From positions 69,823,556 to 69,887,555 of the forward strand of contig CM049310.1 of the NCBI GenBank assembly GCA_026874595.1: 64,000 bases of DNA. Reading direction: 5' to 3'. The position numbers and the translations under genes are program-made. The notes under the pieces are model-generated. The model saw only the letters and a list, made by a program, of their open reading frames with translations, searched no databases and was not told the origin of the DNA. Numbering within the stretch: the first letter of the stretch is position 1; every line of letters starts with the position of its first letter. Positions 3,590 to 61,199 of this stretch are shown one piece after another. The stretch comes from Sipunculus nudus (taxonomy: Eukaryota; Annelida; Sipuncula; Golfingiida; Sipunculidae).

Positions 3590-4060
3590 TTCTTAACTTC
3601 CAAACAACCTACCTACCTGATTTCATACCTGACTACCTATCTGACTACCTCTCTGACTTATCTACCTACCTACCTACCCACTATCCTACCTACTTATCTG
3701 ACTACCCACCAACCTACCTACTTATCTGCCTACCCACCAACCTATACCTGTCTTACTGCCAATCTACCTAATTGACTACCCACCAACCTACCTACATATC
3801 TCACTGCCCACCGCTAAACCTACTTATCTGACTACCCACTAGTCTACCAACTAATCTGACTACCCACAAACCTACCTAACCGACTTCCTATCTACCTATC
3901 TGACTACCCACCAACCTACCTACTTATTTGACTACCCAATAACCTGCCTATATATCTGACTACCCACCAACTAACATTCCTGACTGCGTACCTACTTATC
4001 TGACTACCCACCATCCTACCTATATCTGACTATAACCACCAACCTTACTACTTATCTGAC
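3590..4060. repeat. Degenerate CTAC/CTGA-rich repeat, left shoulder of the minisatellite
   Basis: Irregular runs of CTAC, CTGA and CCACCAAC tetranucleotide-like motifs, for example TATCTGACTACCCACCAACC recurring at variable spacing. It looks like the unhomogenised edge from which the regular 44-bp unit to the right arose. Confidence 0.8.
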
Positions 4061-6640
4061 TACCCACCCACCGACCTACCTGACTGCATTTCTACCTGTC
4101 TGACTACCCACCCACCGACCTACCTGACTGCATATCTACCTGTCTGACTACCCACCCACCGACCTACCTGACTGCCTATCTACCTGTCTGACTACCCACC
4201 CACCGACCTACCTGACTGCCTATCTACCTGTCCGACTACCCACCCACCGACCTACCTGACTGCCTATCTACCTGTCCGACTACCCACCCACCGACCTACC
4301 TGACTGCAGATCTACCTGTCTGACTACCCACCCACCGACCTACCTGACTGCCTATCTACCTGTCTGACTACCCACCCACCGACCTACCTGACTGCCTATC
4401 TACCTGTCTGACTATCACCCACCGACCTACCTGACTGCCTATCTACCTGTCCGATTACCCATCCACCAACCTACCTGACTGCCTATCTACCTGTCTGACT
4501 ACCCACCCACCGACCTACCTGACTGCCTATCTACCTGTCCGATTACCCACCCATCGACCTACCTGACTGCATTTCTACCTGTCTGACTACCCACCCACCG
4601 ACCTACCTGACTGCATATCTACCTGTCTGACTACCCACCCACCGACCTACCTGACTGCCTATCTACCTGTCTGACTACCCACCCACCGACCTACCTGACT
4701 GCCTATCTACCTGTCCGATTACCCACCCACCGACCTACCTGACTGCCTATCTACCTGTCCGACTACCCACCCACCGACCTACCTGACTGCCTATCTACCT
4801 GTCCGACTACCCACCCACCGACCTACCTGACTGCATATCTACCTGTCTGACTACCCACCCACCGACCTACCTGACTGCATATCTACCTGTCTGACTACCC
4901 ACCCACCGACCTACCTGACTGCCTATCTACCTGTCTGACTACCCACCCACCGACCTACCTGACTGCATTTCTACCTGTCCGATTACCCACCCACCGACCT
5001 ACCTGACTGCATTTCTACCTGTCTGACTACCCACCCACCGACCTACCTGACTGCCTATCTACCTGTCCGATTACCCACCTACCGACCTACCTGACTGCAT
5101 TTCTACCTGTCTGACTACCCACCCACCGACCTACCTGACTGCCTATCTACCTGTCTGACTACCCACCCACCGACCTACCTGACAGCCTATCTACCTGTCC
5201 GACTACCCACCCACCGATCTACCTGACTGCCTATCTACCTGTCCGATTACCCACCCACCGACCTACCTGACTGCCTATCTACCTGTCCGACTACCCACCC
5301 ACCGACCTACCTGACTGCCTATCTACCTGTCCGACTACCCACCCACCGACCTACCTGACTGCCTATCTACCTGTCCGACTACCCACCCACCGATCTACCT
5401 GACTGCCTATCTACCTGTCTGACTACCCACCCACCGACCTACCTGACTGCCTATCTACCTGTCCGACTACCCACCCACCGACCTACCTGACTGCCTATCT
5501 ACCTGTCCGACTACCCACCCACCGACCTACCTGACTGCCTATCTACCTGTCCGACTACCCACCCACCGACCTACCTGACTGCCTATCTACCTGTCCGACT
5601 ACCCACCCACCGACCTACCTGACTGCCTATCTACCTGTCCGACTACCCACCCACCGACCTACCTGACTGCCTATCTACCTGTCTGACTACCCACCCACCG
5701 ACCTACCTGACTGCCTATCTACCTGTCCGACTACCCACCCACCGACCTACCTGACTGCCTATCTACCTGTCCGACTACCCACCCACCGACCTACCTGACT
5801 GCCTATCTACCTGTCTGACTACCCACCCATCGACCTACCTGACTGCCTATCTACCTGTCTGACTACCCACCCACCGACCTACCTGACTGCCTATCTACCT
5901 GTCCGACTACCCACCCACCGACCTACCTGACTGCCTATCTACCTGTCCGACTACCCACCCACCGACCTACCTGACTGCCTATCTACCTGTCTGACTACCC
6001 ACCCATCGACCTACCTGACTGCCTATCTACCTGTCTGACTACCCACCCACCGACCTACCTGACTGCCTATCTACCTGTCCGACTACCCACCCACCGACCT
6101 ACCTGACTGCCTATCTACCTGTCTGACTACCCACCCACCGACCTACCTGACTGCCTATCTACCTGTCCGACTACCCACCCATCGACCTACCTGACTGCCT
6201 ATCTACCTGTCCGACTACCCACCCACCGACCTACCTGACTGCCTATCTACCTGTCCGACTACCCACCCACCGACCTACCTGACTGCCTATCTACCTGTCC
6301 GACTACCCACCCACCGACCTACCTGACTGCCTATCTACCTGTCTGACTACCCACCGACCGACCTACCTGACTGTCTATCTACCTGTCTGACTACCCACCC
6401 ACCGACCTACCACACTGCCTATCTACCTGTCTGACTACCCACCCACTGACCTACCTGACTGCCTATCTACCTGTCTGACTACCCACCCACCGACCTACCT
6501 GACTGCCTATCTACCTGTCTGACTACCCACCCACCGACCTACCTGATTGCCTATCTACCTGTCTGACTACCCACCCACCGACCTACCTATCTTACTACCC
6601 ACCAATCTACCTACTTATCTGACTACCCACCAACCTACCT
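4060..6640. repeat. 44-bp minisatellite array, about 57 units
   Basis: Tandem units of 44 bp, each containing CCACCCACCGACCTACCTGA followed by CTGCCTATCTACCTGTCYGA and CTAC. Forty-four is 11 x 4, and most of the unit is itself a run of CTAC/CTGA/CCAC tetranucleotides, so the unit grew from a microsatellite. The centre of the array is nearly homogeneous. The commonest variants are C or T in CTGTCYGAC, GATTACCC for GACTACCC, and CATATC, CATTTC or CAGATC for CTATC. The last units before 6640 are shorter and diverged. No long reading frame is maintained. Confidence 0.95.
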
Positions 6641-16914: not shown

Positions 16915-17099
16915 CTAGACGACCATAGGTCGAACGCTTGCCGGAAATCGGAAGTGAAACACAGACGGACAGACAGAACATATTGTCGGTTTTCTATTAA
17001 TGGAATGACTCTCAGGGACATTGCTGAGAATATGTGGCCCGTAGAATGTCATATGAGACAAAAGAACAGGCAAGCAGACAAAGCTGACAACAAAAGACG

Positions 17100-18090
17100 A
17101 ACAGACAGACATACTGACTTTGTGAGACAAGATTGACACCAGATGACATAAGCTAGTTATTGAGAAGATTCAAAGGAAGAAAATGAGTTATAATTTATGT
17201 AATTTAGATTTATAGTTTACGAGGTATGGCGAATTAATGATATACTTGGGAGGCTCGACTGTAGCGCCCTCTAGCAGACATATTCCGAAGACGACAAATG
17301 CATTTCGTATTATTAGTGTATGACATGAGATGTCTCAGTTTTAAAAGGATTCCGTCAAAGCTGTGGGCTGTAGAATGCTCTATGTAAGGCGTAAGAACCA
17401 GCTAGCAGGCGACTTTGAGGATAACGGACAAACAGATGGACACACTGACAAAGTGACAGAAGATTGAAACCAGATGCCTTAATCAGGCTATGGAGAGGAC
17501 TCAAAGGAAGAAAATAAGCTATAGCTTATGTAACTGAGGCTTTGGGTGTAGAGTTATGGCCAATACAATGGTATGTGTGTGAGAGTCATGTGCAGCGCCC
17601 CCTAGCGGCCATATCCGGAAAATGAAAAATTGGTTTCGAGATATAAGTGTAAGACTTAAGATGTAATAGTTTCAAAAGGATTCTTTCAAAACTGTGGCCT
17701 GTAGAATGATATATGTGAGACGCAAGAGCAAGCAGGCGAATTTGAGGACAACTGACAAACAGACGGACACAATGACAAAGTGATACAACATTGAGATCAG
17801 ATGACATTAACAGTTTATGGAGAAGACTCAGAGGGAAAAAATAAGCTATAGTTTATGTAATTGAGGCTTTGGGTTTTAGAGATATGGCCAATGTAATGAT
17901 ATCTGTGTGAGGGTCGTGTGCAGCGCCCCCTAGCAGCCATATTCAAAAAATGAAAAAACAATTTCGAGATACTAGTGTAGGACTTATGATATGTCAGTTT
18001 CAAAAAGATTCCTGCAATAATGTGGCCTTTGGCGTAAGATGAATGAAATCTCGAAATATCTCTATTCACGAGATATTTTACGAGATACTG
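17100..18090. repeat. Tandem units of about 328 bp, core of subfamily A
   Basis: Three units are recognised by AGCGCCCCCTAGCGGCC-like sequence at 17261, 17592 and 17921, spaced 328-331 bp apart. Each unit has GACAAACAGACGGACAC, AAGATTGAGACCAGATGAC, ATAAGCTATAGTTTATGTAA, the CGCCCCCTAG motif and then ACTGTGGCCTGTAGAATG. The same unit recurs at 58560-59500. Confidence 0.88.
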
Positions 18091-18518
18091 CAAGACTTGT
18101 AATAAAATCTTGTAGTACTAGTTGAATGCTACCTGATGCAAAAAACTAGATCACTCTAGCTTTAAAACTGACAAAGTTAGAAAAATAAGATCCCTTATTT
18201 TCGAATATCATGACTTTTCCCCCAAAAATTGTAACCATGGTTACGGCAAATTTGAGTCAGTTGCACACCAGATGACAGGCCTTGGAATTACGATTAAAAT
18301 GAGCTATTTTTGAAGTAGATACGACTAATAGTCACAAAGATATGAAGAAAAAAACGTTTTGAGAAGTTTTAACGACCTTGACCTTGACCTTTGACTTAAT
18401 TTAACCAAAAACAATAGGGCACCTAGAAATTATGTTTTCCAACATCCCTGTAAGTTTCAAGGTTATTGTGGCAAAATTGTGGCCAGGAGAGTGGTGACAA
18501 ACAAACAAACAAACAAGA

Positions 18519-20427
18519 CAAGATGACCAGAGGTCACGCGCTTGCCGGAAATGGAAATGATACAGACAGATAGACAGAGAGTGCATGTAGAAAAGACATA
18601 TGAATGAGCAACATTGTGGGGGCAGCAGAAACGGATAATATGTTTATTTATGCATGCTGACCTTTAACAGCTGCATATCTTTCTAGTGTAAAAGGGACCA
18701 AGTTCAAAATTTTTTCATGAAATCCCGTTTATCTCGTTTGACAAGAAGCAGTGAGACGTTTTCAGGTTTGTCATGTCAAGCTGGTCATATGTGACAAAAT
18801 GCCGAAAACTAGAACTACTTTGTTGTAAAAGGCGCCGAGTTATAAGCATTTCAGTGACATCTCGTTTGTTCACGTTGCACAAGATATGGTGCGAGATTTG
18901 GGCAGACTTATGGCTTTATCTAATCAAGCAGTTCATATGTGACACAATGCCGAAAACTAGACCTTCGTACCTTTAAAAATCGCCGAGTTAAAAGCATTTT
19001 GGTGAAATCTCGTGTTTTCTCGTTTGACGAGATACGGTGCAAGATTGTGCCTGACTTGGAGTTCTGTCATGTCAAGCGGGTCATGTGGAACTAAATGCCG
19101 AAAACTAGACCTGTCTAGCTGCAGTTCCGTGAAATGTCGTGTTTTCTCGTTTGACGGGATACGGTGCGAGATTTTGCCTGACATTCATGTCTGTCGTGTC
19201 AAGCTGGTCTAGTGGAACAAAATGCCGAAAACCAGACGTGTCTATCTGTAAAACTCGCCGAGTTATAACCAATGCCGTGAAATCTCATGTTTTCTCGTTT
19301 GACGAGATACGGTGCGACATTCGGCCTGACTTTCATTTCTGTCATGTCCAGCAGGTCATGTGAAAGAAAATGCCGAAAACTAGACCTGTCTAGCTGTAAA
19401 ACTCGCCGAGTTATAAGCATTTCAGTGAAATCTCGTGTGTTCTCGTTTGACGAGATAGGGTGCGAGATTTGGCCTGACTTGCACATCTATCGTGTCAAGC
19501 TGGTCGTGTGGAAGGAAATGCCGGAAACCAGACGTGTCTAGCTGTAAAACTGGCCGAGTTATAAGCATTTCCGTGAAATTTCGTGTTTTCTCGTTTGACG
19601 AGATACGGTGCGAGATGTTGCCAGACTTGCATATCTGTCGTGTCAAGCTGGTCTAGTGGAACTAAATGCCGAAAACCAGACGTGTCTAGCTGTAAAACTG
19701 GCCCAGTTATAAGTTTCCGTGACATCCCGTGTTTTCTCGTTTGACGAGATACGGTGCGAGATTTGGCCTGTCTTGCAGCTCTGTCGTGTCAAGCTTGTTT
19801 GGTGGAACGAAATGCCGAAAACCAGACCTGTCTAGCTGTAAAAGTCGCCGAGTTATAAGCATTTCCGCGAAGTCTCGTTTTTTCTCGTTTGACGAGATAT
19901 GGCGCAAGATTTGGCGTGACTTTCAGTTCTGTCGTGTCAAGCTGGTCAAGTGGAACAAAATGCCGAAAACTAGATCTGCCTAGCTTAAAAACTGACAAAG
20001 TTACAAAAAAATGGTCGTTTTATTTCCAATTTCCATGATTTTTGCCCAAAAAATGTAACCATGGTAACGGCAAATTTAAATAAGCTACATATCAAAAGAA
20101 AGGCCAGGTGATGACGAAAAAAATGAGCTATTGCAGAAGTAGATAAGCTTATGTATGGCAAAGTTATAGTGCGAAAACCGTTAACCACACCTGTCGTGAC
20201 CTTGACCCTTGACCTTGGAGCAATGTTGACCAAAAACAATAGGGTTCCAGGGTGTTCGGTTGTCAATCAACCCTGTAAGGGTCATGTCGATTGCTGCAAA
20301 ATTGTGGCCAGGAGAGCGCAGACAAACACACAAAAAAACAAACAAAAAAACAAAAAAACAAAAAAACAAACAGACAAATGGACATACGCAACTGACCAAC
20401 ATGCTTGCCGGAAATCTTCCGGCAAGC
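18519..20427 (-). mobile_element. Helentron-like subfamily B element, first copy of a head-to-tail dimer
   Basis: The left hairpin is TGACCAGAGGTCA (18524-18536), followed by GCGCTTGCCGGAAATGG. The right hairpin (20403-20427) has a perfect 11-bp stem, GCTTGCCGGAA paired with TTCCGGCAAGC. The body has a GACAGATAGACAGA microsatellite, a 149-bp tandem array, a GTAACCATGGTAAC segment and a GACCTTGACCCTTGACC segment before a CAAAAAAACAAAC run. The CTAG of other copies reads CAAG here. Confidence 0.75.
18720..19990. repeat. 149-bp satellite-like array, about 9 units
   Basis: Units are recognised by TCTCGTTTGACGAGATA at about 19019, 19147, 19296, 19446, 19588, 19738 and 19887, with spacing mostly 142-150 bp and one 128-bp unit. 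Each unit carries three small palindromes: CTAGACCTGTCTAG, AACTCGCCGAGTT and TCTCGTTTGACGAGA. The several short open frames in both strands are by-products of the repeat. Confidence 0.92.
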
Positions 20428-20429
20428 AA

Positions 20430-22937
20430 TGACCAGAGGTCACGCCCTTGCCGGAAATGGAAATGATAGAGACAGATAGACAGAGAGTGCATGTAGAAAC
20501 AGTCATATGAATAAGCAACATTTTGGGGGCAGCAGAAACGGATAATATGTTTATTTATGCATGCTGACCTTTAACAGCTGCATATCTTTCTAGTGTAAAA
20601 GGGACCAAGTTCAAAATTTTTTCATGAAATCCCGTTAATCTCGTTTGACAAGAAGCAGTGAGACGTTTTCAGGTTTGTCATGTCAAGCTGGCCAAATGAT
20701 ATGAAATGCCGAAAATTAGACCTGTCTAGCTATAAAAGCCGCTGAGTTATAAGCATTTGCATGAAATCTCGTGTTTTCTCGTTTGACGGGAAATGGTGCG
20801 AGCTTTGGCGAGATTTCCAGTTTTGTCATGTCAGGTTTGTCAAATATTACAAAATGCCGGAAACTAGACCTGTCTAGCTGCAAAAGTCGCCGTGTTATCA
20901 GCATTTACGTGAAATAATGTTTTTTTTTTCGCTTGACGAGATATAGTACGAAATTTGGCAAGACGAGCAGTTCTATTATGTCAAGACGGCCAAACGTTAC
21001 GAAATGCGAAAACTAGATCCGTCTAGCTGTAAAAGTCGCCGAGTTATAAGCATTTCCGTGTACTCTCGTGTTTTCTCGTTTGACGAGATATGGTGCAGGA
21101 TTTGGCCAGTCTTGTAGATTTGTCATATCAAACTCTCTAAATGTTATGAAATGGCGAAAACTACATCTGTCTAGCTGTAAAAGTCGCCGAGTTATTAGCA
21201 TTTCTGTGAAATCTGCTTTTTTATCATTTGACGAGATATGGTGCGAGATTTGGCCAATCTTGCAGGTTTGTCATATCAAGCCGCCCAAATGTTAATGAAT
21301 GCCAAAAACTAGACCTGTCTAGCCGTGAAAGTCGCCGACTTATATGGATTTCTGTGAATTCTCGTTTTTTCACATTTGACCAGATATAGTGCGAAATTTC
21401 GCCAAGTATCGCAGTTTTACTATGTCAAGTTGGACAAATGTTACCAAATGCCAAAAACTAGACCTGAGTAGCTGTAAAAGTCTCCTAGTTATAAGCATTT
21501 CCATGATATCTCGTTTTTTTTTCTCGCTTGACGAGATATGGTGCGAGATTTGGACTGATTTCTTTTCTGGCGTGTCAAGCTGGTCATATGTTATGAAATG
21601 CCGAAAACTAGACCTGTGTAGCTGTAAAAGTCGCCGAGTTATAAGCATTTCCGTGAAATCTCGTTTTTTCTCGTTTGACGATAAACCGAGCGAAATTTGA
21701 CGAGACTTGCAATTGAATGACTTAGAACCAAGGGGAAGCAGCCTTATGCAAAAAACTAGACCCTTGAAACATAAATATTAACCGACATAGAAGCCAAAAA
21801 CTGCATATTTTCAGATCGTCAAGTTTAACCCACAAATTTGGTAACCATGGTAACGACAGCACAAAGCTACATGTGCGGAGGAATAAGCCAATGTTCCTAG
21901 TTTAAGATACAACGATAAAAATTGTGCCATGTTTAAAATTATTTTAGATATTGCAGAAAAATGATATCTTACAGTGTTTCAGGTACCACGCCCCCTGGTG
22001 GCTATTTCCAAAAAATGAAAAACTGATTTCGAGATATTTATAAATAACACAAAATATATCAATTTCAAAGCCATTGTTAAAAAAATGCAACCTTTAGGTC
22101 ATATTTAATGAAATCTCGAAGACTCTCGTTTGACGAGAAACGGTACGAGATTTTGCAAGATTTTTGATTGGATCACCGAGAACTCACCAAGGGCTACAAG
22201 ATGCAAAAAAATTGACCTCTCCAGCATAAAAACTGACAGAGTTAGAAGCTGAAAACTGCATATTTTCAAAATTCAAAAGTTTTACCCCAAAAATAGAGAA
22301 ATCTGGCAATAGCGCAGTTTGGCACCTATGCGCAAAAATAAGCCCATGGACCCCACTTGAAGGTGCTGTGATGGAAATGGCCCAATGTTTAATAGTTCTG
22401 GAGGTATAGCACCAAAACAAATTTTCATGTTTTTTCATCTGCAACGCCCCCTGGCGGCCATTTCCAAAATCTGAAAAAACAATTTCGAGATATTCTTGTG
22501 TTACATAAAATATCTCAGAATCAGTACGATTGCTGCAAATTTGAAAAATATCACGAAATTCCATGATTTCTCCCCAAAATTGCGTAACCATGGTAACAGC
22601 AAATTCAAGTAAGCTACATGTCAAAAGAAAGGCCAGGTGATGACGAAAAAAATGAGCTATTGCAGAAGTGGATAAGCCTATTTATGGCGAAGTTATAGTG
22701 CAAAAACCGTTAACCATACCTGTCATGACCTTGACCCTTGACCTTGGAGCAATGTTGACCAAAAACAATAGGGCACCTAGAAATCAATTTGTCAATCAAG
22801 CCTGTAAGTTTCAAGTTGATTGATGCAAAAGTGTGACCTGGAGAGTCGTGACAAACAAACAAACAAACAAACAAAAAGACAAACAGACATACGCAACTGA
22901 CGAACATGCTTGCCGAAATCGAAGATTTCCGGCAAGC
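20430..22937 (-). mobile_element. Helentron-like subfamily B element, second copy of the dimer
   Basis: The left hairpin TGACCAGAGGTCA (20430-20442) starts two bases after the right hairpin of the previous copy. The right hairpin (22908-22937) joins GCTTGCCGAAATC to GATTTCCGGCAAGC. The first 250 bp match the start of the previous copy closely, including the GACCTTTAACAGCTGCATAT segment. The body carries a second 149-bp array and two further blocks with CGCCCCCTGGTGGC / CGCCCCCTGGCGGC. Confidence 0.75.
20630..21715. repeat. 149-bp satellite-like array, about 8 units
   Basis: This is the same unit as at 18720-19990. TCTCG-TTTGACG-type landmarks occur at about 20640, 20777, 20929, 21076, 21226, 21374, 21521 and 21669. 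Units here are more diverged from one another, with some reading TCGCTTGACGAG or CACATTTGACCAG. Confidence 0.9.
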
Positions 22938-23012
22938 AACAAACAGACAGACAGACAAACAGACATACGCAACTGACCAATATGCTTGCCGAAATCTTTG
23001 ATTCCGGCAAGC

Positions 23013-32690: not shown

Positions 32691-32914
32691 ATTTCGTAAC
32701 AATGTATGGAACAGAATCCTTTGAATTAATATTTATAGTGATCGAGATTATCTCCAAAATTTAATGGAATGTTCCTTTTTTTCCTAACAGTCCAAAACAT
32801 TTTAACAAGGTCTGTTCAGAACTTTCTGCGTGCATTTTCTTACAGACAAAGTGAGGGGTAAAGTATGAAACCTCTCGCCACCTGGCGGATTAATTACATT
32901 AATAGATGACTCAC
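32691..32914. other. OATP intron downstream of the TM7 exon
   Basis: Short intronic stretch without a recognised feature between the donor at 32914 and the repeat block to the left. Confidence 0.6.
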
Positions 32915-33178
32915 TGGCCACAAGGGCAGCCAAGGAAGACGTCTTAGCGCAGAAAGTATTTTGAATATATTTCGAAAAGAACGGAGAGACTCCCGTGACG
33001 GTCATGTCTTGAAACGTCGCCGTGGCAATGACGAGCATGACAGTTGGATTGAAAAATATCGCTTTCATTATCCCGAGAATATTTTTGGAAGTGTTGATTT
33101 GTTGTACATCAGCACTTGATTCCATGGTTGTAATCTTGAGCATCTCTGACAAATTGTACTCATGGGTGCTTCGAGGTT
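32915..33178 (-). pseudogene. SLCO: OATP pseudogene, exon for the central cytoplasmic loop and TM7
   Basis: The acceptor is TTGACTGTTCTAG and the donor GTGAGT. Its 264 bp encode the loop, then ILGIMKAIFFNPTVMLVIAT and FFSKYIQNTFCAKTSSLAAL. This matches the OATP stretch F-x-x-x-l-x-x-x-L-x-N-P-x-f and F-x-x-KY-I-x-x-x-F. It is open, and it enters and leaves in phase 1, consistent with the upstream exon. The expected TM8 exon should follow. Confidence 0.92.
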
Positions 33179-34314
33179 CTAGAACAGTCAATAAGTAATA
33201 CTGATAACATCCATTTGGTATCTAAAACTTATAAAAGGAATTCGGTTCACGTTTGTTCGCAGTGTTCTCTATAACCACGTTGTGTACAATACTGTGCCAT
33301 ACATCATTTTAAAGGTTATTATCCCCGCAGTGACATAGGCGATATGAAAATAAATAATTTTTAATTGACATATAATTTTGAGTGATTTTTCAGTTTTTTT
33401 ACCGAGCACAGCCGAACTGCCTTCGGCAATCACCGGAATGCGTGCATCGTGGTCACTTAACCTCTAACACTAAGGACTATTGTTCATGTGAATAACGCTT
33501 GCTTTTAATGAGGGATTTGACCCACGTGCGTGGTCAGTAAAAGAGAAAAACACATGTTTCACGCTTTATGAAATGGAGAGTTTAACCCAGGAGGATTAAT
33601 GACAAAACCTAATTCAAGGTTCCAGTTTCAGGAACAGGGCTGGGGTGGTTTCGGGGGTTTCAGGCCTCAAAATTTGTCTGATATGATAAAAAAAAAGGTT
33701 GCGGTGGCTGAAAATGGGATACGGACCCACTGCACGGAGTCCGCTTCTGCTACTTATGATGTATGTCTATTTCTGTTTCCTTCTTCAGTAAACATACCGG
33801 GATATGATTTTTGCCACGAGCTCAGCGCCACAAAATAACAGTAAAAATTATTTGTACATATCGTATTCAGTGAGTATCCCACTAAAAATCGATATTTTCT
33901 TAAAACTTTTATAATAAAATTGAGCCAACATTCAATATCTCAGTAAATATATCTCCCAAACCGCGGTAAAAAGCCCGGTATACCGGGTTTATCAGCTAGT
34001 TACAGATAAACATATATAACATACATCATATCCAAGACTTAAAATGGTAACTAGATATCTGCATTCTAACGAATGCAAGCTCCACCATTCATTTATTCGG
34101 CCCACATTATGAGGTTCATGCATAAGTGAATGTACATTTGTAAATATTCCATGATGACGTTCCTGGATCCGGATCATGGGTTGGATCCACATCCAAATCT
34201 AATAGATTCTTCATTGGCTAAATTTCCGAAATGCCCTGAAAACTTCAATGACTGCGTGAGTTATGTTGTTCATAAACACACAAACACACGAACGAATATG
34301 AACATGGCACTTAC
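33179..34314. other. OATP intron
   Basis: 1.1 kb. The palindrome AAGCCCGGTATACCGGGTTT lies at 33970-33989 and a short hairpin CCGAACTGCCTTCGGCA at 33411. No exon was seen. Confidence 0.55.
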
Positions 34315-37029: not shown

Positions 37030-38445
37030 ATTTTGGTAAATTAGGAATAAATCGAGATTCAACCATCACATTCTCTGACGTAATTCAATCATCACAATCT
37101 CTGTCGTGATTCAACCATCTAACTCTCTGTCGTGATTCAACCATTTAACTCTCTGTCGTGATTCAACCATCACATTCTCTGTCGTGATTCAACCATCACA
37201 CTCTCTTTCATGATTCAACCATCAAACTCTCTGTCATGATTCAGCCATCGCACTGTCTGTCATGATTCAATCATCAAATTCTCAGTCGTGATGCAACAAT
37301 CACACTCTCTGTCGTGATTCAACCATCAAATTCTCTGTCGTGATTCAACCATCGCATTCTCTGTCGTGATTCAACCATCAAATTCTCTGTCGTGATTCAA
37401 CCATGACATTCTCTGTCGTGATGCAACCATCACATTCTCTGTCGTGATTCAACCATCGCACTCTCTGTCATGATTCAACCATCACATTCTCTGTCGTGAT
37501 TCAACCATCACATTCTCTGTCGTGATTCAACCATAACATTCTCTGTCGTGATTCAACTATCGCACTCTCTGTCATGATTCAACCATCAAATTCTCTGTCA
37601 TGATTCAACCATCAAATTCTCAGTCGTGATTCAACAATCACACTCTCTGTCATGATTCAACCATCACATTCTCTGTCGTGATTTAACCATCATTTTCTCA
37701 GTCGTGATTCAACAATCACACTTTCTGTCATGATTCAACAATCACACTCATTGTCATGATTCAACCATCACACTCTCTGTCGTGATTTAACCATCACATT
37801 CTCTGTCGAGATTTAACCATAACATTCTCTGTCGTGATTCAACCACTTAACTCTCTGTCGTGATTCAACCATCACATTCTCTGTCGTGATTTAACCATCA
37901 CATTCTCTGTCGTGATTTAACCATCGTACTCTCTGTCGTGATTCAACCATCAAACACTGTCGAGAATCAACCATCACGCTCTCTGCCATGATTAAACCAT
38001 CACACTATCTGTCGTGATTCAACAATCACACTCTTTGTCATGATTCAACCATTACATTCTCTGTCGTGATTCAACAGTCCCACTCTCTGTCGTGATTCAA
38101 CCATCACATTCTATGTCGTGATTCAGCCATCACATTCTCTATCGTGATTCGACCATCAAATTCTCTGTTTTGATTCAACCAACAAACTCTCTGTCGTGAT
38201 TCAACCATCACTTTGTCTGTCGTGATACAACCATCACACTTTTTGTCGTGATTCAACCATCACATTCTCTGTCGTGATTCAGCCATCACATTCTCTGTCG
38301 TGATTCAGCCATCACACTCTGTCATGATTCAACCATCGCACTCTCTGTTGTGATTAAACTAACACACTCTTTGTCATGATTAAACCATCACACTCTCTGT
38401 TTTGATTCACTATCGCACTCTCTGTCGTGATTCAACTAACCCCAC
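37030..38445. repeat. 26-bp minisatellite, about 53 units
   Basis: The unit is GATTCAACCATCACATTCTC followed by TGTCGT. Variation is concentrated in ATCACAT (ATCAAAT, ATCGCAC, ATTTAAC) and in TGTCGTG/TGTCATG. It lies in the intron between the TM5 and TM4 exons of the OATP pseudogene, starting about 180 bp from the former. Confidence 0.95.
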
Positions 38446-49290: not shown

Positions 49291-51134
49291 ACTAAACGTA
49301 AAGTCGATTTGAGATATTATTTTGTTTGGTTAGCTACCTAAATATAAAAGAAAATTTATGCTATTTACGAGTGCTAACCACATAAACGCCAGGTCGGTAT
49401 TCAGGTCAGCATGGATAGTTATAGTTAATTAAAAATGTCATCGAAAGCAAACTGTTATATATGAATAAAACAGAACAGACGGAAAATGAACAAACAAAAA
49501 GTACCTCTACACGTTTGACAAATTTGCTGACAGGCATATATTCAAATGATTAGAGGGAAAATGATTGTAAAAAATCTCCCGTCAACTTCGGTCATGTGAA
49601 AGCAACAGTTGGTACAATAAATAGTTGAATAGTTTTGAAGTACCTGTCGTTTTATTGTTACAGCTGTCCAAGTATTTGTAACTGACTTTTGCGGGTGTAT
49701 GACACCTTGGTGGTATGATATATGCTTCTGCTTTGTACTTCCATAATAACCCTCAGAAACGTATATGGTCGTGTAGACTTCTTCGTCGGCCAAGGACACG
49801 AACTTTGGCAATGGAGCCGTCAACATTATAAATTTATAATGTGTAGGGTAGCGGATGAGTTCTTTGATATAGAATAACTGCTTGTCTCGTGATAGACAAA
49901 ATTCTAAAAGAACTTTACATATTCAGTTAAACTGCAAGGTCTCATCAAATTTGCAGAATTAATGGAATGCCATCCATGAAGCCATCACAAGGTTCACATA
50001 GAACCGGAATTAACTGAAATTTCTGTAAAATGTGACTTTTGGTACAATGTAAAAATGTATCTACCGTATTTCCTTGATTAGAAACCCGGACCTTTATTTT
50101 TTCAGACCCTGATTTTGACCCGGCGTCTAAACAAGGCCGGCGTTTATTATAAAATATATTGTCAGGCTAGTTAGAAAAAAAATTAAAAAAGAACACGTCG
50201 AAACATTAAACCCACCGGTCTTAACTTAGGGACACAATTAAAAACAAAGCCGGTACACGGATATGTTAACGAAATTTCCTTAGATGCCACAGTGATATGG
50301 GACACGCGCAATCTCCACAATCACGCACCATAATAAGAATTTACGAGGAATCACAGCGAGAGATTACAGCTGTCCACAAATAACAATCTGTCCGTGCAGG
50401 CCTCTCCAATACAGGTCCCCCGGAAATGATCTTGCTATTTTGTGATAATCAAATACTTAATATATGAATGCAACACAAATACCAGGTGGTACTTTTTGGA
50501 CTACATTAAAATTTAAAATGCAGGAGCTTCTCATGATCAAATATTTGTAAAGCTATCTGTATTTTAACTATGTGAAAGTAATACATGTTTAAAATACCCA
50601 CTAGAAAAATAAAATATGAAAACCTGTAAAATATAGAGTAAGGAAGGAAGTGGAGATCAACTGTTATCTAATAATATACATTTCTTTTATTGACTTAAAT
50701 AAAGTACTGTAAAAAATTAGAATTGCACATCTTCAAATGAGCATAAACAAAATCAAATAAGTATATACTTTACTCTGTAATATACACCTTAAACCATTAA
50801 ATTATGCAATAGGGGAAAAAGCTATTGGGCTAAGAGTTATATCAAAGGATATATTTAATGAAAAAAAATGCGTAAATGTAATTAATAATTTATATACAGT
50901 TTAAAGTTCCAGGAAAGTGTGCCAAAATTCCTGATTGGGTGTATCAGTGTTATGCATGGCAAGAGACATTAATGGAATGCTCAACATTTTTATATCATTA
51001 CATCACTTTCTGGGTAAAAATAAATGTGTACTACTATGTAAAAATAAATGTGTACTACAACATAGTAAAGTACTGGTGGATGCAGAGGGAAAGCCTAGCT
51101 TGGGAAGACAAAGACTTTGTAACCATATTTTTGG
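49291..51134. other. Intergenic sequence, nothing firmly recognised
   Basis: 1.8 kb. 50064-50160 (CGTATTTCCTTGATTAGAAA ... GGCGTTTATTATAAAAT) has the look of the end of a dispersed element, but its partner end was not found. Confidence 0.45.
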
Positions 51135-51978
51135 TATAAAAAGGAAATGTTGAGGACATCTAACTGTATGCAAATTTTGGATTCATATGTCCAATGGTTT
51201 CAAAACCTGTGTTGCAACCACTATTGTAATAACGTTCACTATTGTAATAATTATTACAATAGTGGTTGGTAAGGGCCAGTTTTTGCTAACCACTATTGTA
51301 ATAACGGTCACTATTGTAATAATTATTACAATAGTGGTTGCAAATGCAACCACTATTGTAATAATTTTTTATTACAATAGTGGTTGATGTTGCAGGCGGA
51401 AAATTTTCCTAGATTTGTCGAGATTCTTCCAAACAAATGACATTTCCGAAAAAAAACCCACACAATTCCTACTCTGTTTCCCCAAAAACGCATCACTTTG
51501 TATTTCATATGTTATTACACTACTGAACTTTATTACATAAGTGACCGTGTTTTTGGTATAAAAAGGAAATGTTGAGGACATCTAACTGTATGCAAATTTT
51601 GGATTCATATGTCCAATGGTTTCAAAACCTGTGTTGCAACCACTATTGTAATAACGTTCACTATTGTAATAATTATTACAATAGTGGTTGGTAAGGGCCA
51701 GTTTTTGCTAACCACTATTGTAATAACGGTCACTATTGTAATAATTATTACAATAGTGGTTGCAAATGCAACCACTATTGTAATAATTTTTTATTACAAT
51801 AGTGGTTGATGTTGCAGGCGGAAAATTTTCCTAGATTTGTCGAGATTCTTCCAAACAAATGACATTTCCGAAAAAAAACCCCACACAATTCCTACTCTGT
51901 TTCCCCAAAAACGCATCACTTTGTATTTCATATGTTATTACACTAGTGAACTTTATTACATTAGTGACCGTGTCGAGA
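51135..51978. repeat. 422-bp tandem duplication rich in TTATTACAATAGTG palindromes
   Basis: Two copies (51135-51556 and 51557-51978) are nearly identical, differing by only a few bases. Each contains about eight copies of TTATTACAATAGTG in alternating orientation, including CACTATTGTAATAATTATTACAATAGTG-type perfect inversions. Identical 66-codon open frames at 51187 and 51609 are products of the repeated motif. Confidence 0.93.
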
Positions 51979-52290
51979 AACCACTATTGTAATAACGGTC
52001 ACTATAAAAACTAGCGGCCACCTTTATTTCACCACTGAAGAAATAATTCTATCGTCGTTCATCTTGAAAGCCACCATTGTTTTAAATTTGAGTTCAATTC
52101 TTAAATGCTGCATAATTGTAGTATTCCAAACTTTATAATCCACTCTTACATCATTATTTATAGCAATTACGAAATTTATTACAATAGTGAACGTTATTAC
52201 AATGGTGACCGTGTCGAGCAACCACTATTGTTATAACGGTCACTAATGTAATAAAAAATAGCCGGCTTTATTATCTTACCACTGAAGAAA
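51979..52290. repeat. Tandem units of about 240 bp with the same palindromic motif, left part
   Basis: GTCGAG-AACCACTATTGTAATAAC occurs at 51974 and again at 52213. The unit continues with ACCACTGAAGAAATAATT and ATGCTGCAT...GTATTCCAAACTTTATAATC. The second unit is cut at 52290, right after CCACTGAAGAAA, by the element that starts at 52291, and appears to continue at 60029. Confidence 0.85.
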
Positions 52291-52799
52291 CTAGATGACC
52301 TGAGGTCACGCGCTTGCCGGAAATGATGTAAAGTTAGTCAGATGAACGAGCAGTATAAAAGTGAAAGAAAATAATCCATAGTTTGTGAAGAAAGAACAAA
52401 TATTAACAAAGTTCTAAAGAAAATAAGATTTTGATATATTTTGATCACCTTGTCCTTGACCTTTGACTTATTTGAATAATAAACATAGGACTTCCAGATA
52501 TCATCATGATATATGACAAGTGTAATTTACAAAACGATTCCTTCAAAACTGTCCAGTAGAATGCTACATGTGAGACGCAAACACCTGGAAGCAGGCGAAA
52601 TTGAGGACAACTGACAAACAGACTAGACGACCTGAGGTCGAACGCTTGCCGGAAGTGACCGGAAATAAGACAGCGAAATAGATGGACAGTTACTAGGCAG
52701 ACAGACAGGGAACATTTGGATCTGATCAAATGAAAAACCTCTATCATGGGGAAAACAGTAGCACATATGAATAAGGTCTTGCTGATTTTCAAAAGTCAA

Positions 52800-52823
52800 A
52801 GAGGAGTAGACAGAGAGACAGAC

Positions 52824-52852
<29 letters not shown>
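52800..52852. repeat. (GACA)n/(GAGA)n microsatellite inside the B element
   Basis: GACAGAGAGACAGACAGA-type run, matching the tetranucleotide tracts found near the ends of the other copies. Confidence 0.9.
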
Positions 52853-52854
<2 letters not shown>

Positions 52855-52869
52855 TAGAGAGACATTAAT

Positions 52870-54889
52870 AGTGTTGTTATTAGTAGCCATCCTATACAGG
52901 ATAATCCATTTTTGGACAGAAATAAAAATAAAGGAAGTCCAACTGAATCCTTGGCAGTTCTCCTATTCTTGAGTGCTGGAAATAAGAAAAGCACTGAAAA
53001 AGAAACTTGAAGAGTTGAACGTCCAGAATGCCGAAATGCAAGCGAAGCCGCGTTCGTGTTAGACAGAGACCCGACCTCTGGGTAAGGGAGACGTGACCTT
53101 TCATTCCTGGACAAGCTAGGTGCCTATCTAGACCATCCTTTAAGGTCTCGGCTTAAATAAGGGCTTTCCTTGAAGAAAAAAGGTTAGCCGGTCAGCCTGC
53201 GTCCGGGAATTATAAAATTCCAAGAAGTCCTGCCCATCACGGATTAACTGTAATGTCCCCTTGGTGTAGGTTATCTGTAATGTGAAATTTAATATATTTA
53301 AAAATTGGAATCTTTGGTTAAAAAAGGAGAGACTTTTAAGGAGTCTGAAGTGGTAAGTAATAAGATAAAAAAATTTGAGGCCCTAGTTCCGTGGTGGGTT
53401 AGGACTTCATATATAAAAATATATTCTGGCATGAGAGAGGGGTGCTGTCAAATTTTTTGGCGCCTGCCGCACGTTTGTGAATAAAACGGTACACTTGACA
53501 CGGGCGCGATGGAAATTTAAGAGGAAAGGTAGTAATCCCAAGCCATAGTTGAGTTGTTTTGACCCCAGAGTTTGCAGTCCTCGCTGAAATAGGCATGGGA
53601 CGGGCTCTTTTTTAAACCCGGAACGCCAGAAGAGGCTGGAGATTGAATGAAGGATTGGGCCATTTTTTTTATCCGAAAAACCTGGGAATTGACAATTAAA
53701 AAAAATGACAGGGACCTTCTTAGCCCGTTCCAGCTCAGGGAACGGTCATTAGAATATTGTCGGGAATCCATATTATCCTACCTGTGGGCTGGGACGGTCC
53801 AGAAAACCGCAATTATACGGGTATCCATAAAATTGTATGTCCGTTTTTGTCATTAATAAATACATATACATCTATAACGCGGACAGCTGGAGAATTCGCG
53901 GAGAATTCATCATGATGATGTTATTAAATGTGAGCAAAGGTACAATTTATGTTTTGTATCATATTTCCTTAAGAACCTGTAAATTTGATATCCTGCATGG
54001 TTTTGTTACGGTTTGCACAGTAAACTGTTGAAAAAATATATAGTGTTTAGCGTTTTCGTCTGACGTAAGATCGGTAGTCAATGTTAGCTGGTGATCCAGA
54101 TTGGTGTAAGTGGCAGTCCCACATTGTTTGCGCTGGTTATTATTTCGGTAATTTAACAGTGAATAAATGTCTTTAGAGTAATATAGTGGTAGATTTTAAA
54201 TGAGTTTAACGTGTAATTAAAAGTATCATTGCATATAAAATCTCTCCGTGAATTGTCCGGGAATTCCCCGCGTTTACATATAAACGCATTTACCAGCCGT
54301 ATGAAAGTTTTTGTCCGCTTTCATAATGTTTGCCGTGCCCCGGACACAAATTTAAGACGAGATGGACTAAACCCCGCCCCTGTAGGATTGTTTGGACTCT
54401 GAAGAAACGAACCCTCGCAGGAAATGCGGTGGGACGGGCTCTTTCTTATTCGATGAACGCTCGAAAAGAGTGGTGAATGATTGAAAAAATAGGGTCATTT
54501 TCACTGTCATCTTGAATAACGGAATAAATATTTTTTTTTAAAATTCATAGAGACTTGATCATCCAATAACAGCAGAAAAAAATGTTCTTTCAAATGTTGT
54601 GTGGTGTCCATTGTACCCTCGCCCACCGCCGGGATCCAAAGAGAAGCCTGGATTTTACTGCAAAAAAAAAAAACACAAACACCCCAAAAAAAAAAAAAAA
54701 AAAAAAAAAACTTTTATTCATTTTATTTTTATTTTTTATTACTGGATGTAATTGAATATCATGGTTTATTTATAAAAAAATAAGATGCAATTCATTGGAT
54801 GAAAAGAGATTTTATTAAATATATTGATACATGTTTATAACAGTTTGATATTTGATTTTTTTTAATTTATAGACAGACAATTTGTTACC
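52870..54889. other. Interior sequence of the nested element, origin unknown
   Basis: 2 kb absent from the other B copies. A sequence around TGGGACGGGCTCTTTTTT (about 53597) recurs, diverged, at about 54431 (TGGGACGGGCTCTTTCTT), so part is internally duplicated. Poly-A-like runs lie at 54661-54710. No recognised coding. Confidence 0.5.
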
Positions 54890-56790
54890 TCAAATCTGTA
54901 CTCATGGTCCAACATGCATGTATTTGGTGTTCTTAGACCCATTTCAGGGTGTATATCCATGATAACAAGATAATATTACCTTGTTCCCACCAGCAAACAT
55001 TTCAAGCCCCCAGAAAGCTGATTTCAGCTGAGGACAGTATATGGCTTATTATACACAGGCAAATAGTGTTTTGGACCACCTCATCTCCACCAGACTCATC
55101 ACACACACCTGGTTTGGCTATCATTGCAATCCATTTACACCCACTGGCTGGAATCTCAAAGCATTTGGTTCAAATCCCTCAGAAAAAAAATTAGGGCCAG
55201 TTTGAATTTCCAAATCTGGACACAGTGGACATAGTGATATACAGAAAAAAATCCATTTTTTCCCCTCAAATCTGTACTGATGGTCCCACAAACCTGGTTT
55301 TGGTGTCATTAGGCCCAGTTTAGTGTGTATATACAGGGAAACAAGATAATATTACCCTGTTCCCACAAACAAAAATTTCATGCCCCCAGAAACCTGATTT
55401 CAGGCCAGTTTATGCTTATACACAGTCAAATAGGTTCTGGCCCCCCTCATCCCCACAAAACTCAACACACACTCCTGGTTTGGGTATCATTGCAATCCAT
55501 TTACACCCACTGGCTGGCATCACCAAGCATTTGGCTCAACTCCCTCAGAAAAAAAATTAGGGCCAGTTTGAATTTCCAAATCTGGACACAGTGAACATAG
55601 TGATATACAGAGAAAATCCATTTTCCCCCCTCAAATCTGTACTGATGGTCCCACAAACCTGGTTTTGGTGTCATTAGGCACAGTTTAGGGTGTATATACA
55701 GGGAAACAAGATAATATTACCCTGTTCCCACAAACAAAAATTTCATGCCCCCAGAAACCTGATTTCAGGCCAGTTTATGCTTATACACAGTCAAATAGGT
55801 TCTGGCCCCCTTCATATCCACAAAACTCAACACACACTCCTGGTTTGGGTATCATTGCAATCCATTTACACCCACTGGCTGGCATCACCAAGCATTTGGC
55901 TCAACTCCCTCAGAAAAAAAATTAGGGCCAGTTTGAATTCCCAAATCTGGACACAGTGAACATAGTGATATACAGGGAAAATCCATTTTTTTTTACCTCA
56001 AATCTGTAATGATGGTCCCTAAAACATGGTTTAGGTGTCATTAGGCCCAATTCAAGGTGTATATACAGGGAAACAAGATAATATTACCCTGTTGACACAA
56101 ACAAGAATTTCAAGCCCCCAGAAACCTGATTTCAGGCCAGTTTATGCTTATACACAGTCAGATAGGTTCTGGCCCCCCTCATCTCCACAAAACTCAACAC
56201 ACACACCTGGTTTGGTATCATTGCAATCCATTTACACCCACTGGCTGGTATCTCAAAGCATTTTGCTCAACTCCATCAGAAAAAAAATTAGGACCAGTTT
56301 GAATTTCCAAATCTGGACACAGTGAACATAGTGATATACAGATAAAATCCATTTTTCCCCCTCAAATTTGTACTGATGGTCCCACAAACCTGGTTTTGGT
56401 GTCATTAGGCCCAGTTTAGGGTGTATATACAGGGAAACAAGAAAATATTACCCTGTTCCCACAAACAAAAATTTCATGCCCCCAGAAACCTGATTTCAGG
56501 CCAGTTTATGCTTATACACAGTCAAATAGGTTTTGGCCCCCTTCATCTCCACCAGACTCTTCACAAACACCTGGCTTGGGTTTCATTGCAATCCATTCAC
56601 ACCCACTGGCTGGCATCTCCAAGCATATAGCTCAACTTCTTCAGAAAAAAATATAAACCACTTTAAAGTTTATCAAATCTGGTCATAGTGGTTTATGCAG
56701 AAATCAATTGTTCTGATCTCAAATCTGAAATAGTGGTCATAGAACATTGGTTGGTTCTTGTATGATTTTATTCAATTTACAATCAATTTG
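54890..56790. repeat. Satellite-like tandem array with 365-bp unit, about 5 units
   Basis: Landmarks such as TACAGGGAAACAAGATAATA recur at about 54950 (diverged), 55330, 55695, 56062 and 56427, with spacing 365-376 bp. Units share CCCCCAGAAACCTGATTTCA, TCCATTTACACCCACTGGCT and CAAATCTGGACACAGTGAAC. The outer units are more diverged. Each unit has a similar open frame of about 89 codons, but 365 is not a multiple of 3 and no family is recognised, so coding is not supported. Confidence 0.93.
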
Positions 56791-57179
56791 CAGGAAAACC
56801 TGGCATTTTATTTTACTTCAATACACCAACAATAAACAATCTAAGGACAAGTGAACAGGCTACCATACATATATTAGGGAAAGGAAAACAGCAAAGGTTG
56901 TTTACATTGAGGACACATGGCAACCAGGTGGTTGGCGCTGGTCTGTGAAGCTTACGAAGCAGCAATCAAAGGAAGACGATAACAACACAATAGAAGTCTT
57001 CTTCATGGGCCATCGCACACCCATAGAACACGGCTCCAACTGTCAAGTGTAATGCCCCTGCCGACATTTACTATCACATACTGCCGCCACTTATGGTCAC
57101 GGCAATAGGATGTACTTTTTTATTTGAAGAAAAAACGATCCCAGATTTGACGAAACTTACAATATAAACACATAATGTG

Positions 57180-57660
57180 ACCGAGAGTGTTAGACGCTAT
57201 CGAATGCTGAAAACTAAAGGTCTTCAGCATTAAAATAACAGAATTATAGGCGTATCTTTGAATGGGCGTATCTTTGAATGGTCCCATGTTCTCGTTTGAC
57301 AAGAAATGATGCGAGATATGACGAGATATTCAATTTTGTCACTTCAAACTAGTCAAGTGAATCTTGAACAATAGAAAAATAAAATCTCTGGCATTCAAAT
57401 GGCAGAGATATAGACATTTGTTCGAATTCTCGAATATTCTCGTTTGGCGGGAGATGGTACGAGATGTGGCGAGATATAAGTTATTATCTTGTTAAGCTCC
57501 CAAAACGCAACAAAATGCTGAAAACTGCTCCTCTTTAGCCGAAAAGGTGACCAAGTTATAAGCATTTCTGTGAAATCTCGTAATTTCTCGTTTGACGGAA
57601 AACAGAGCGAGATTCTACGAGACTTGCAATTAACTGCATTAATGGCAAGGGAATGCTACC
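57180..57660. repeat. 149-bp units, three diverged copies
   Basis: TCTCGTTTGACAAG (57292), TCTCGTTTGGCGGG (57439) and TCTCGTTTGACGGA (57584) are spaced 145-147 bp apart, with GAAAACTA...CTGAAAAC between. This is the core unit of subfamily B in its shortest form. Confidence 0.85.
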
Positions 57661-58559
57661 TCATGCAGAAAACTAGACACTTGTAGTATAAATATTAACA
57701 GAGATAGAAGCAAAAAACTTATTATTTTCAGATTGCCAAGTTTTACCCCAAAATTTGGTTACCATGGTAACAGCAGCGCAAAGCTACATGTACGAAGGAA
57801 TAAGGCAATGATCCTAGTTTTAGATGCGACAAAAAAAATTGTTATATGCTAAATATTTTTTTAGATATTGCGGAAAGATGATATGTTACAGTGTTTCCAG
57901 TACCACGCCCCCTGGTGGCTATTTCCGAAAAATGAAAAAACAAGTTCGAGATAATACAAAACAACAGAAAATGTTTCACTTTCAGAACCTTAGCTGTAAA
58001 ACTGCGACCTGTAAATCGTATTTAATGAAATCTCGAAAAGTCCCATTTGACGACACATGGCACGAGATTTTGCGAGACTTACATTAATTTCGCATAGAGC
58101 ATATTAAATGCTACGCATTGCAAAAAACTAGGCCTCTCTAACTTAAAAAATGAGAAATTTGGAGGGAAATTTTCGAATTTTCTGATTTTCCCCCCAAAAA
58201 ACGTTATCATGGTAACCATTGACCGGAAAAATTTGCCAGCACTTGGAAAGCTAACATAGTGAGGAATAAAATGAGCTACATATTATGCGGCTACGATTAT
58301 TATTGACGAAGATATGAAGAAAATAAAGATTTTAGGTTTTTTGGTGACCCTGACCTTGACCTTTGACCGATCATCACCAAAAACAATAGGCTCCGAGGAG
58401 AACAGATCTTACAGTTTATGTATAAGTTTCAGAGCGATTGCTTAAAAACTGTGGCCTCTAGCGCGTGTACATACAGACAAACAGACAGACAAACAAACAA
58501 ACAAACATACGCGGGTGATCAACATGCTTGCGAAAATCGAAGATTTCCGGCAAGCAACA

Positions 58560-59500
58560 AACATACTGACAAACTGACCCAAGATTGAGACCAGTTGACT
58601 TAATCATGTAATGGAGAAACCTCAGAGGAAGATAATAAGCTATAGTTTATGTAAATGAGGTTTATACTTTTGGAGATATGGCCAAAAAATGATATGTTGT
58701 GGAAGTTTGAGTGCACCGCCCCCTAGCGGCCTTATCTGGAAAATGAAAAATTCGTTTCGAGATTTTAGTGTAAGACATAAGATGTAATAGTTTTAAAAGG
58801 ATTCTTTCAAAACTGTGGCCTGTAGAATGCTATATGTGAGACGCAAGAACCGGCAAGCAGGCGAATTTGAGGACAACTGAGAAACAGACGGACACACAGA
58901 CAAAGTAACTCAAGATTGAGACCAAATAAATACACCAGGTTTTTGGAAAGACCCAGAGGAAGAAAATAAGCTATAGTTTATGTAAATGAGGTTTATAGTT
59001 TTGGAGATATGGCCAAAAAATGATATGTTGTGCAAGTTTGAGTGCACCGCCCCCTAGCGGCCAATTCTGGAAAAGGAAAAATCCGTTTCGAGATATTAGT
59101 GTAAGACATAAGATGTAATAGTTTTAAAAGGATTCTTTCAAAACTGTGAGCTGTAGAATGCTATATGTGAGACGCCATAACCGGTAAGCAGGCGAGTTTG
59201 ATGAAAACTGAGAAACAGACGGACACACTGACAAAGTGACTCAAGATTGAGTCAAAATGACTCCACCAGGATTTAGAAAAGACTCAGAGGAAGAAAATAT
59301 GCTATAGTTTATGTAATTGAGGCTCACAGTTTTGGAGATATCGCCAAAACATGATATGGTGGAGAGGTTTGCATACAGCGCCACCTAGCGGCTGCATTCA
59401 AAAAATGGAATAACTGTTTCGAGATAATAGTGTAGGACTTACGCTGTGTCAGTTTCAAAAAGATTCCTGCAAAACTGTGACCTCCAGGGCAAGATTACTG
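58560..59500. repeat. Tandem units of about 328 bp, core of subfamily A
   Basis: CGCCCCCTAGCGGCC-like motifs at 58718, 59046 and 59379 mark three units spaced 327-333 bp apart. GACAAAGTGACTCAAGATTG and ATAAGCTATAGTTTATGTAA are repeated in each. The first unit is the one split by the nested element. Confidence 0.88.
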
Positions 59501-60028
59501 AAATCTCGAAATATCTCGTTTGACGAGATATTATACGAGATATCGCGAGACCTGTAATAAAATCTTGCAGTACTTGTTAAATGCTACCTGATGCAAAAAA
59601 CTAGACCTCTCTAGCTGTAAAACTGCCAAAGTTAGAAAAATAAGGCCCCTTATTTTCGAATATCATGACTTTTTCCCAAAAATTCGTAACCATGGTTACG
59701 GAAAATTTGAGTCAGCTACACACCAGATGACAGGCCTTGGAATGACGTTTAAAATGAGCTATGTTTGAAGAAGATACGACTAATAGTGACAAAGATATGA
59801 AGAAAACACCATTTTGAGAAGTTTTGATGACCTTGACCTTTGACCTATATTGACCAAAAACAATAGGCTTCTTGCATTTTTGATTATCTATAAAGTGTGT
59901 AAGTTTGAAAGTGATTGGTGCAAAATTGAGACCTGTAGAGAGATGACAGACAAACAGACAAACAGACAAACAGACAGACATCCGCGACTGACCAACCAGC
60001 TTGCGAAAATCGAAGATTTCCGGCAAGC

Positions 60029-60290
60029 AATAATTTCCCTCACAGTTAATCTTGAAATGCAACCATCGTTTCATATGTCTGTTTAAGTGTAAAATGCTGC
60101 GTTAATAGTATTCCAAACATTATAATCCACTCTCACGTCATTAATTTCCCCATAACGAAATTTATTACAATAGTGAACGTTATTACAATAGTGAACGTGT
60201 CGAGCAACCACTATTGTAATAACGGTCACTATTGTAATAAAAAATAGCCGTCAGTTTTATCTCACCACTGAAGAAATAATTTTTTTCCCA
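60029..60290. repeat. 240-bp palindrome-bearing repeat, right part of the disrupted target
   Basis: It continues the unit cut at 52290: TAATTTCCC, CTTGAAATGCAACCATCG, TAGTATTCCAAACATTATAA. At 60162-60240 two TTATTACAATAGTGAACG motifs face two inverted copies across GTGTCGAGCAAC, giving a long imperfect inverted repeat. It ends in another CCACTGAAGAAATAATT (60267). Confidence 0.85.
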
Positions 60291-61199
60291 AATTTAACGA
60301 AATTCATAAAAGTAAAAGGTTAGGGATCTTAAATATTCAGAATACATTTGCAATCCTCTCATACGTGTTTATTTATGCCACAAACGACATTTATTACAAC
60401 AGTAACAATTATTGCATTATTAAACGCAAATAGTTCGTCCCATTTTTTAATGTTAAAATTGGAGTTCTTTTATAATTTTGTGGTCTGGGATTTTCATTTT
60501 TTATTTACCAAGCTGAGCCAACTTTATTTTGCTATCTATATCAGTATAATAAAACGCTGGATTAACGCAGTGTTATCTTATCCTCATTATTCATTATAAG
60601 CGAGTAGTTAGAAAATTACAGTTAATGGAAAGTACATTCGTTGTGAGTGAAATGCAATTCTAAAAGGTAATTAAATGTTTAACTAAAAAATGTCCTGAGA
60701 ACTTACTCACACGGCATTAGTGAACGCGAGAAATGTGTATTATGTTGAAATATATTGCAATTGAATGTAAATATATTGTAAGTAATTTAGAAATCTTTTA
60801 TCGAATCAGGGAATAAACGAAGAATCCAGCCAAACCTAATGGACTGAGGAGACTCAATAGATTCACCTGATATGGGGACATGCTGGAGGAAACATTAAAC
60901 CCCCATATGACATATAATATATAAATCTATCTCGCTGGGAAATTTCCGTGTTAGTTTCTGAAGTTAATGAGGACAGATGTTATGGGACCTGTAATTAGAT
61001 TCTTAAGAGGATCGAATCCACTGCGACATAAAAAAAGAGAGAAATGTGTTCCTTAGCTAAGAAAATAGCTTGAGCAGACGTAGAATTAAAACAAACTAAG
61101 TCAACCAAGAATATACAAGGGAAAAGTTGATCTGTGGAACAGATCTAGTATCTCCTCTGCCTGTTGTGGATATACCTGGAAAAAATTGTGAACACCTAT
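60291..61199. other. Intergenic sequence, nothing recognised
   Basis: AT-rich; short open frames only. Confidence 0.5.

Follow-up and report, generated by a model that had tools for sequence, protein, structure and literature searches.

Non-autonomous Helentrons of the HINE type have been described from oysters, mites and Drosophila, and the excerpts of the literature drawn on here give them an inverted-repeat hairpin, a microsatellite, tandem repeats and a 3' palindrome, with insertion at T-rich targets and no target duplication. In Cg_HINE elements, as far as those excerpts describe them, a 5' subterminal inverted repeat (subTIR) is followed by a complementary inverted repeat and a microsatellite (of GTCY type in several Cg_HINE), then by central tandem repeats, a 3' subTIR and a 3' palindrome, and the elements insert into other repeats at T-rich targets without target duplication; the elements described here share all of this. 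They also share with the HINE-Mo and DINE-1 Helentrons (PMC4067079, in part) the subTIRs, hairpins, preference for TT, non-coding derivatives, two or more Ts at either end and paralogous empty sites, and with the FoHeli elements of Fusarium (PMC5148889, in part) self-insertion, both nested and tandem. Tandem or adjacent Helitrons (sections of PMC4067079) and complex loci in oysters in which one element sits within another (sections of PMC12628747) have likewise been reported. Nesting itself is therefore already in print, and the locus presented here is a well-resolved case of a known element class.

Within the 64,000-base stretch of DNA analysed here (the window), a 5,933-bp element (52623-58555) is nested in a relative that spans 52291-60028, measures 1.8 kb without this insert and itself lies within a host repeat. 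Both read in the same orientation on the minus strand, the outer element from 60028 (5') to 52291 (3') and the inner from 58555 to 52623, and they are almost certainly two non-autonomous Helentrons (HINE-type) of one family, one inside the other. The 3' portion of the outer element (52291-52622, minus strand) includes CTAG (52291-52294), a hairpin (52296-52308), the 3' subTIR (52312-52325) and a partial copy of a 331-bp unit (52521-52622). Its 5' portion (58558-60028, minus strand) contains about 2.8 copies of the same unit (to 59483), then a tail, a microsatellite (59945-59980) and, at the terminus, the 5' subTIR and an inverted repeat that form a hairpin (59999-60028). The first-pass annotation, which had proposed this nest, gave the outer element without its insert as 1.8 kb and the unit as 328 bp; the former agrees with the 1,803 bp measured here, whereas the unit is 331 bp. 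The inner element (minus strand) has a 3' end at 52623-52657, with CTAG, a hairpin (52628-52640) and a subTIR, and a 5' end hairpin at 58526-58555. It contains a 365-bp tandem array of 4.8 copies (54888-56651), for which a search at E 1e-3 gives no second match within the window, and a stretch of about 2.2 kb (52680-54880) that has no match in the rest of the window. Both insertions carry two extra bases, AA (TT on the element strand), at 58556-58557 for the inner and 60029-60030 for the outer. Compared without gaps in blocks of 15 bases, the two elements match at 15 and 15 positions just inside the 5' border and at 8, 5, 4 and 6 outside it, and at 14 and 12 just inside the 3' border and at 6, 2, 3 and 2 outside it.

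The inner insertion lies in a GTTTGTCTGT tract of the 331-bp internal repeat of the outer element. When its flanks are joined (52622/58558) and aligned to five 331-bp units (two from this locus, designated A, and three from a second locus, B, described below), none of the 60 columns contains a gap in any of the five, with matches at 21-29 of 30 positions on the left and 22-25 of 30 on the right; shift 0 is the best of 301 right-flank shifts for every unit, and the insertion adds only the two As. A gapped two-sided scan of 625 cut pairs is nearly flat, with the exact cut (0,0) tied best in two of the five units and at most 3 points from the best in all five, and thus does not fix the exact base. 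The alignment proposed in the first pass is continuous as predicted, and because the inner flanks rejoin without gaps in every comparison, an uninterrupted outer element existed first. The order of insertion (outer before inner) and the absence of target duplication are read from the sequence itself. It is highly improbable that 52291-60028, which has a pair of 5' ends and a pair of 3' ends, arrived as one composite element. In Fusarium, FoHeli elements with several 5' termini do seem to move as whole units (PMC5148889, in part), and the segment bounded by the outer 5' end and the inner 3' end could in principle move as one, but we reject a composite unit as the origin on the rejoining of the inner flanks in all five units. 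The nest may have been assembled at another place and later moved as a unit.

The outer element is inserted, also without target duplication, into a T-run (minus strand) of a tandem host repeat. Its left border reads GAAGAAA|CTAG, with the flank ending at 52290, and its right border GGCAAGC|AA|TAATT, with TAATT starting at 60031. The host repeat unit to the left (52038-52290) is 83.1% identical over 255 columns to 60025-60276, the unit to the right occupies 60031-60276, and a weak further stretch lies at 60347-60416 (72.9% over 70 columns). Uninterrupted CCACTGAAGAAATAATT is found exactly at 52032 and 60265 and the interrupted form, CCACTGAAGAAA, at 52279-52290; of the intact copies listed in the first pass, that at 52032 is confirmed and that placed at 60267 is actually at 60265. 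The empty site of the outer insertion is provided by a paralogous host repeat (51935-52043) together with the sequence after 52043. Against this paralog, cut at 52043, the join 52290/60031 matches at 22 of 30 positions on the left, including all 8 adjoining the cut, whereas on the right shift 0 gives 11 matches in 30 and shift +1 gives 20, with 17 for the next best of 301 shifts; in the first 8 bases to the right, 5 match at shift 0 and 4 at +1. The right flank thus differs from the paralog by a 1-bp indel that lies a few bases beyond the cut. Against a second paralog cut, at 60276, the left flank matches at 25 of 30 positions, whereas the right matches only over about its first 6 bases; the best ungapped shift there (+126) is a chance one, and one row scores 6 of 8, which chance shifts equal. 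The gapped two-sided scan (625 cut pairs) places the exact cut outside the eight best listed for either paralog, and a search with the joined flanks matches only the flanks themselves, which carries no information. The proof of the outer empty site is the 52043 paralog; the 60265 copy contributes little on the right-hand side. The proposal that empty sites can be read from paralogs within the window holds for both insertions, the outer through the 52043 paralog (with its 1-bp indel) and the inner through the 331-bp units, as does the placing of the outer junction in a T-run compatible with a TT target. Since two extra Ts are present at each join, the limits of the elements are certain only to within those Ts.

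The host repeat also contains long near-palindromes of the CACTATTGTAATAACGGTCACTATTGTAATAA type, at 51634-52255 and 60161-60241, and is perhaps another mobile repeat. Adjoining it is a tandem duplication of about 420 bp (51119-51973), whose copies are 98.6% identical over 433 columns, which indicates that it is younger than the elements.

The same family forms a second nest, missed in the first pass, at 16915-23012 (locus B). The 3' portion of its outer element (16915-18518, minus strand) has about 2.8 copies of the 331-bp unit and shows, in its empty state, the site that the inner element occupies in locus A. The insert (18519-22937, minus strand) is a head-to-tail pair of related elements (22937-20429 and then 20427-18519, in element order), and beyond it lies the detached 5' terminus of the outer element (22940-23012, minus strand), with a microsatellite and a hairpin. 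Locus B 17106-18521 is 81.6% identical to locus A 58558-59969 (1146 of 1405 aligned bases, not counting gaps), and the 5' terminus is 80.6% identical to 59956-60028 (58 of 72). The blastn match between the loci (80.5% over 1424 columns) begins at 58557/17105, which is the inner junction of locus A, and locus B thus corresponds to the empty site for the insert in A. Locus A, conversely, has no insert at the place where B carries 18519-22937, although the microsatellite blurs the exact base, which the gapped two-sided scan does not fix either. The two members of the pair are 80.4% identical over 1249 aligned bases in one stretch and 88.0% over 375 in another, and the CTAG of the first copy is absent at their junction. 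Outer B sits in a T-run and the insert in a microsatellite, and two 5' termini lie 75 bp apart; FoHeli elements similarly have repeats of the first 31-85 nt of their 5' end, and one FoHeli4 copy is 2 bp from another, which we count as a further likeness (both from PMC5148889, in part), whereas FoHeli differ in being fungal, in being autonomous in some cases and in their end sequences and targets. As judged from the alignments, each locus serves as the other's empty site.

Tandem repeats abound in the region, and even the host flank occurs more than once, as might be expected had tandem repeats been rearranged or misassembled without any transposition. However, both joins in locus A fall at hairpin-bearing element ends and both add AA, we estimate chance agreement in phase at about 1 in 331 for the inner join and 1 in 247 for the outer, and copies that are no more than about 80% alike have diverged too far to stem from collapsed identical repeats. 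We regard rearrangement or misassembly as extremely improbable, and reject it on the position of both joins at element ends and the AA at each.

When as many as 3 mismatches are allowed, the 3' end motif TGACCNNAGGTCNNNCNCTTGCCGGAA has five matches in the window (16920, 18524, 20430, 52296 and 52628) and none in 100 shuffles; the subTIR motif GCTTGCCGGAAATC, found at both ends and searched with a tolerance of 2 mismatches, has nine, compared with a shuffle mean of 0.2 and a maximum of 3. Counting the flanking TT, the sequence at all five 5' ends is TTGCTTGCCGG, and each of these ends forms a hairpin (z -2.8 to -6.8), a feature overlooked in the first pass, which had described the elements as having CTAG plus a hairpin at one end and GGCAAGC at the other; those ends are recovered here as the outer CTAG at 52291-52294, the inner CTAG and the GGCAAGC of the right border. 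A GTCT/GTTT microsatellite tract follows the 5' hairpin in every element. Each of the five 3' ends forms a hairpin of 5 bp (z -2.3 to -2.9), with all 25 cells paired; the outermost pair is T-A in three and C-G in two and the other four pairs are invariant. The covariation score is reached in 44 of 500 shuffles, and the count of changes on both sides in 340 of 500, and with four pairs invariant the covariation is suggestive only. The 3' terminal letters are CTAG in three ends, CTTG in one and neither in the fifth. The 3' hairpin is 5 nt from the end, and the 3' subTIR 21 nt in four elements and 17 in one.

A CTAG (of CTRR form) directly after the 3' hairpin, as in three of these ends, is also the form of canonical Helitrons (Helitron1), in which the hairpin lies 10-12 nt from the 3' end (PMC5148889, in part) rather than 5. 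We give very little credence to such an assignment for these elements and reject it because the 5' ends read TTGCTTGCC, not TC, and insertion is into T-runs or TT rather than at A|T; the inverted subterminal repeats and 5' hairpins also argue against it. The features of HINEs compared here are all present. The ~11-15 bp subTIRs are represented in all five elements by 11-13 contiguous identical bases common to both ends, an inverted repeat adjoins the 5' subTIR and is followed by the microsatellite in all five, each has a palindrome near its 3' end, and the target is T-rich or TT without duplication, with empty sites read for two of the four insertions (inner and outer A). Counting against a HINE assignment are the 3' hairpin and subTIR, which are nearer the terminus than in the mite HINEs (5 nt compared with ~8-35 for the palindrome of HINE-Mo, and 17 or 21 nt compared with ~38-60 for the subTIR), and the three CTAG ends, which are the CTRR form of canonical Helitrons and differ from HINE-Mo/DINE-1 as portrayed in excerpts of PMC4067079. 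The central repeats are 331, 148 and 365 bp here, in contrast to an average of 140-180 bp in Cg_HINE, and the inner element is 5.9 kb; the likeness to Cg_HINE, as excerpted, is one of anatomy.

Under rules given in part of PMC4067079, at least 11 identical subTIR bases define a family and at least 80% identity over the last 60 bases a subfamily. By the first, all five elements belong to one family; by the second, the pair in locus B (0.89) is the sole pair sharing a subfamily, with the other nine pairs scoring 0.64-0.78 (0.74 for outer versus inner A), and the inner element of A is, by this comparison, a same-family member with a diverged 3' end. The Helentron-like identity first proposed holds, and is refined to the non-autonomous HINE type in that no Pfam match to Rep/helicase was found in any of the 34 stop-to-stop ORFs of at least 65 aa overlapping locus A, a scan outside which broken genes in shorter pieces would fall, or in four ORFs of locus B. 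Rfam at the gathering threshold and ARAGORN returned no matches. The end motifs have no match in viral and prokaryote contig collections, which says little as these may omit the window's own genome. A text search of the end-motif letters, a weak one with Repbase and supplements outside its range, did not find the element sequences in print; no transposon title is among the literature matches listed, which we took for primers.

Elsewhere in the window, a 44-bp minisatellite (4048-6588) has 57.8 copies with 96% matches and a 26-bp minisatellite (37052-38436) 53.5 copies. The only Pfam match above its cut-off among 44 ORFs is to an organic anion transporter (OATP; 32805-33221), with five other matches below theirs; this match, on the minus strand (32802-33221, E 1.8e-07), suggests that the window is in or near a gene, probably an animal one.

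As read from the insertion sites, the outer element entered the T-run of the host repeat first, without target duplication, and the inner element then entered the GTTTGTCTGT tract of the outer in the same orientation, adding only two Ts. By analogy with the family, Rep/helicase would have been supplied in trans by an autonomous Helentron at some other genomic location, the enzyme presumably recognising the 5' hairpin and subTIR; copying of a single strand may then have started at the 5' hairpin and ended with the 3' hairpin and CTAG, the copy being joined into a TT site, perhaps as a circle.

The boldest open reading, which rests on two cases and which we think unlikely, is that HINEs carry their own landing pad, such that GTTTGTCTGT-type tracts within every element are a preferred, orientation-specific target for relatives. 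The two nested insertions in the window both fall within tracts of this kind (a 331-bp unit holds one and a 5' microsatellite the other) and share the orientation of their host element, for which the chance of the same orientation twice is 1 in 4. The outer elements account for 3,484 of the 64,000 bases, and the chance of at least two insertions falling there is 0.017 for four insertions and 0.027 for five, figures that are post hoc and ignore a general T-rich bias. If the reading is true, nests and head-to-tail chains would grow inside older copies.

One 64-kb window thus holds two nests of one family that provide reciprocal empty sites, by which the limits of the elements are fixed almost to the base and the insertion order is known with no further genome data needed. 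Together they present a testable case of satellite-carrying rolling-circle elements piling up into complex repeat loci.
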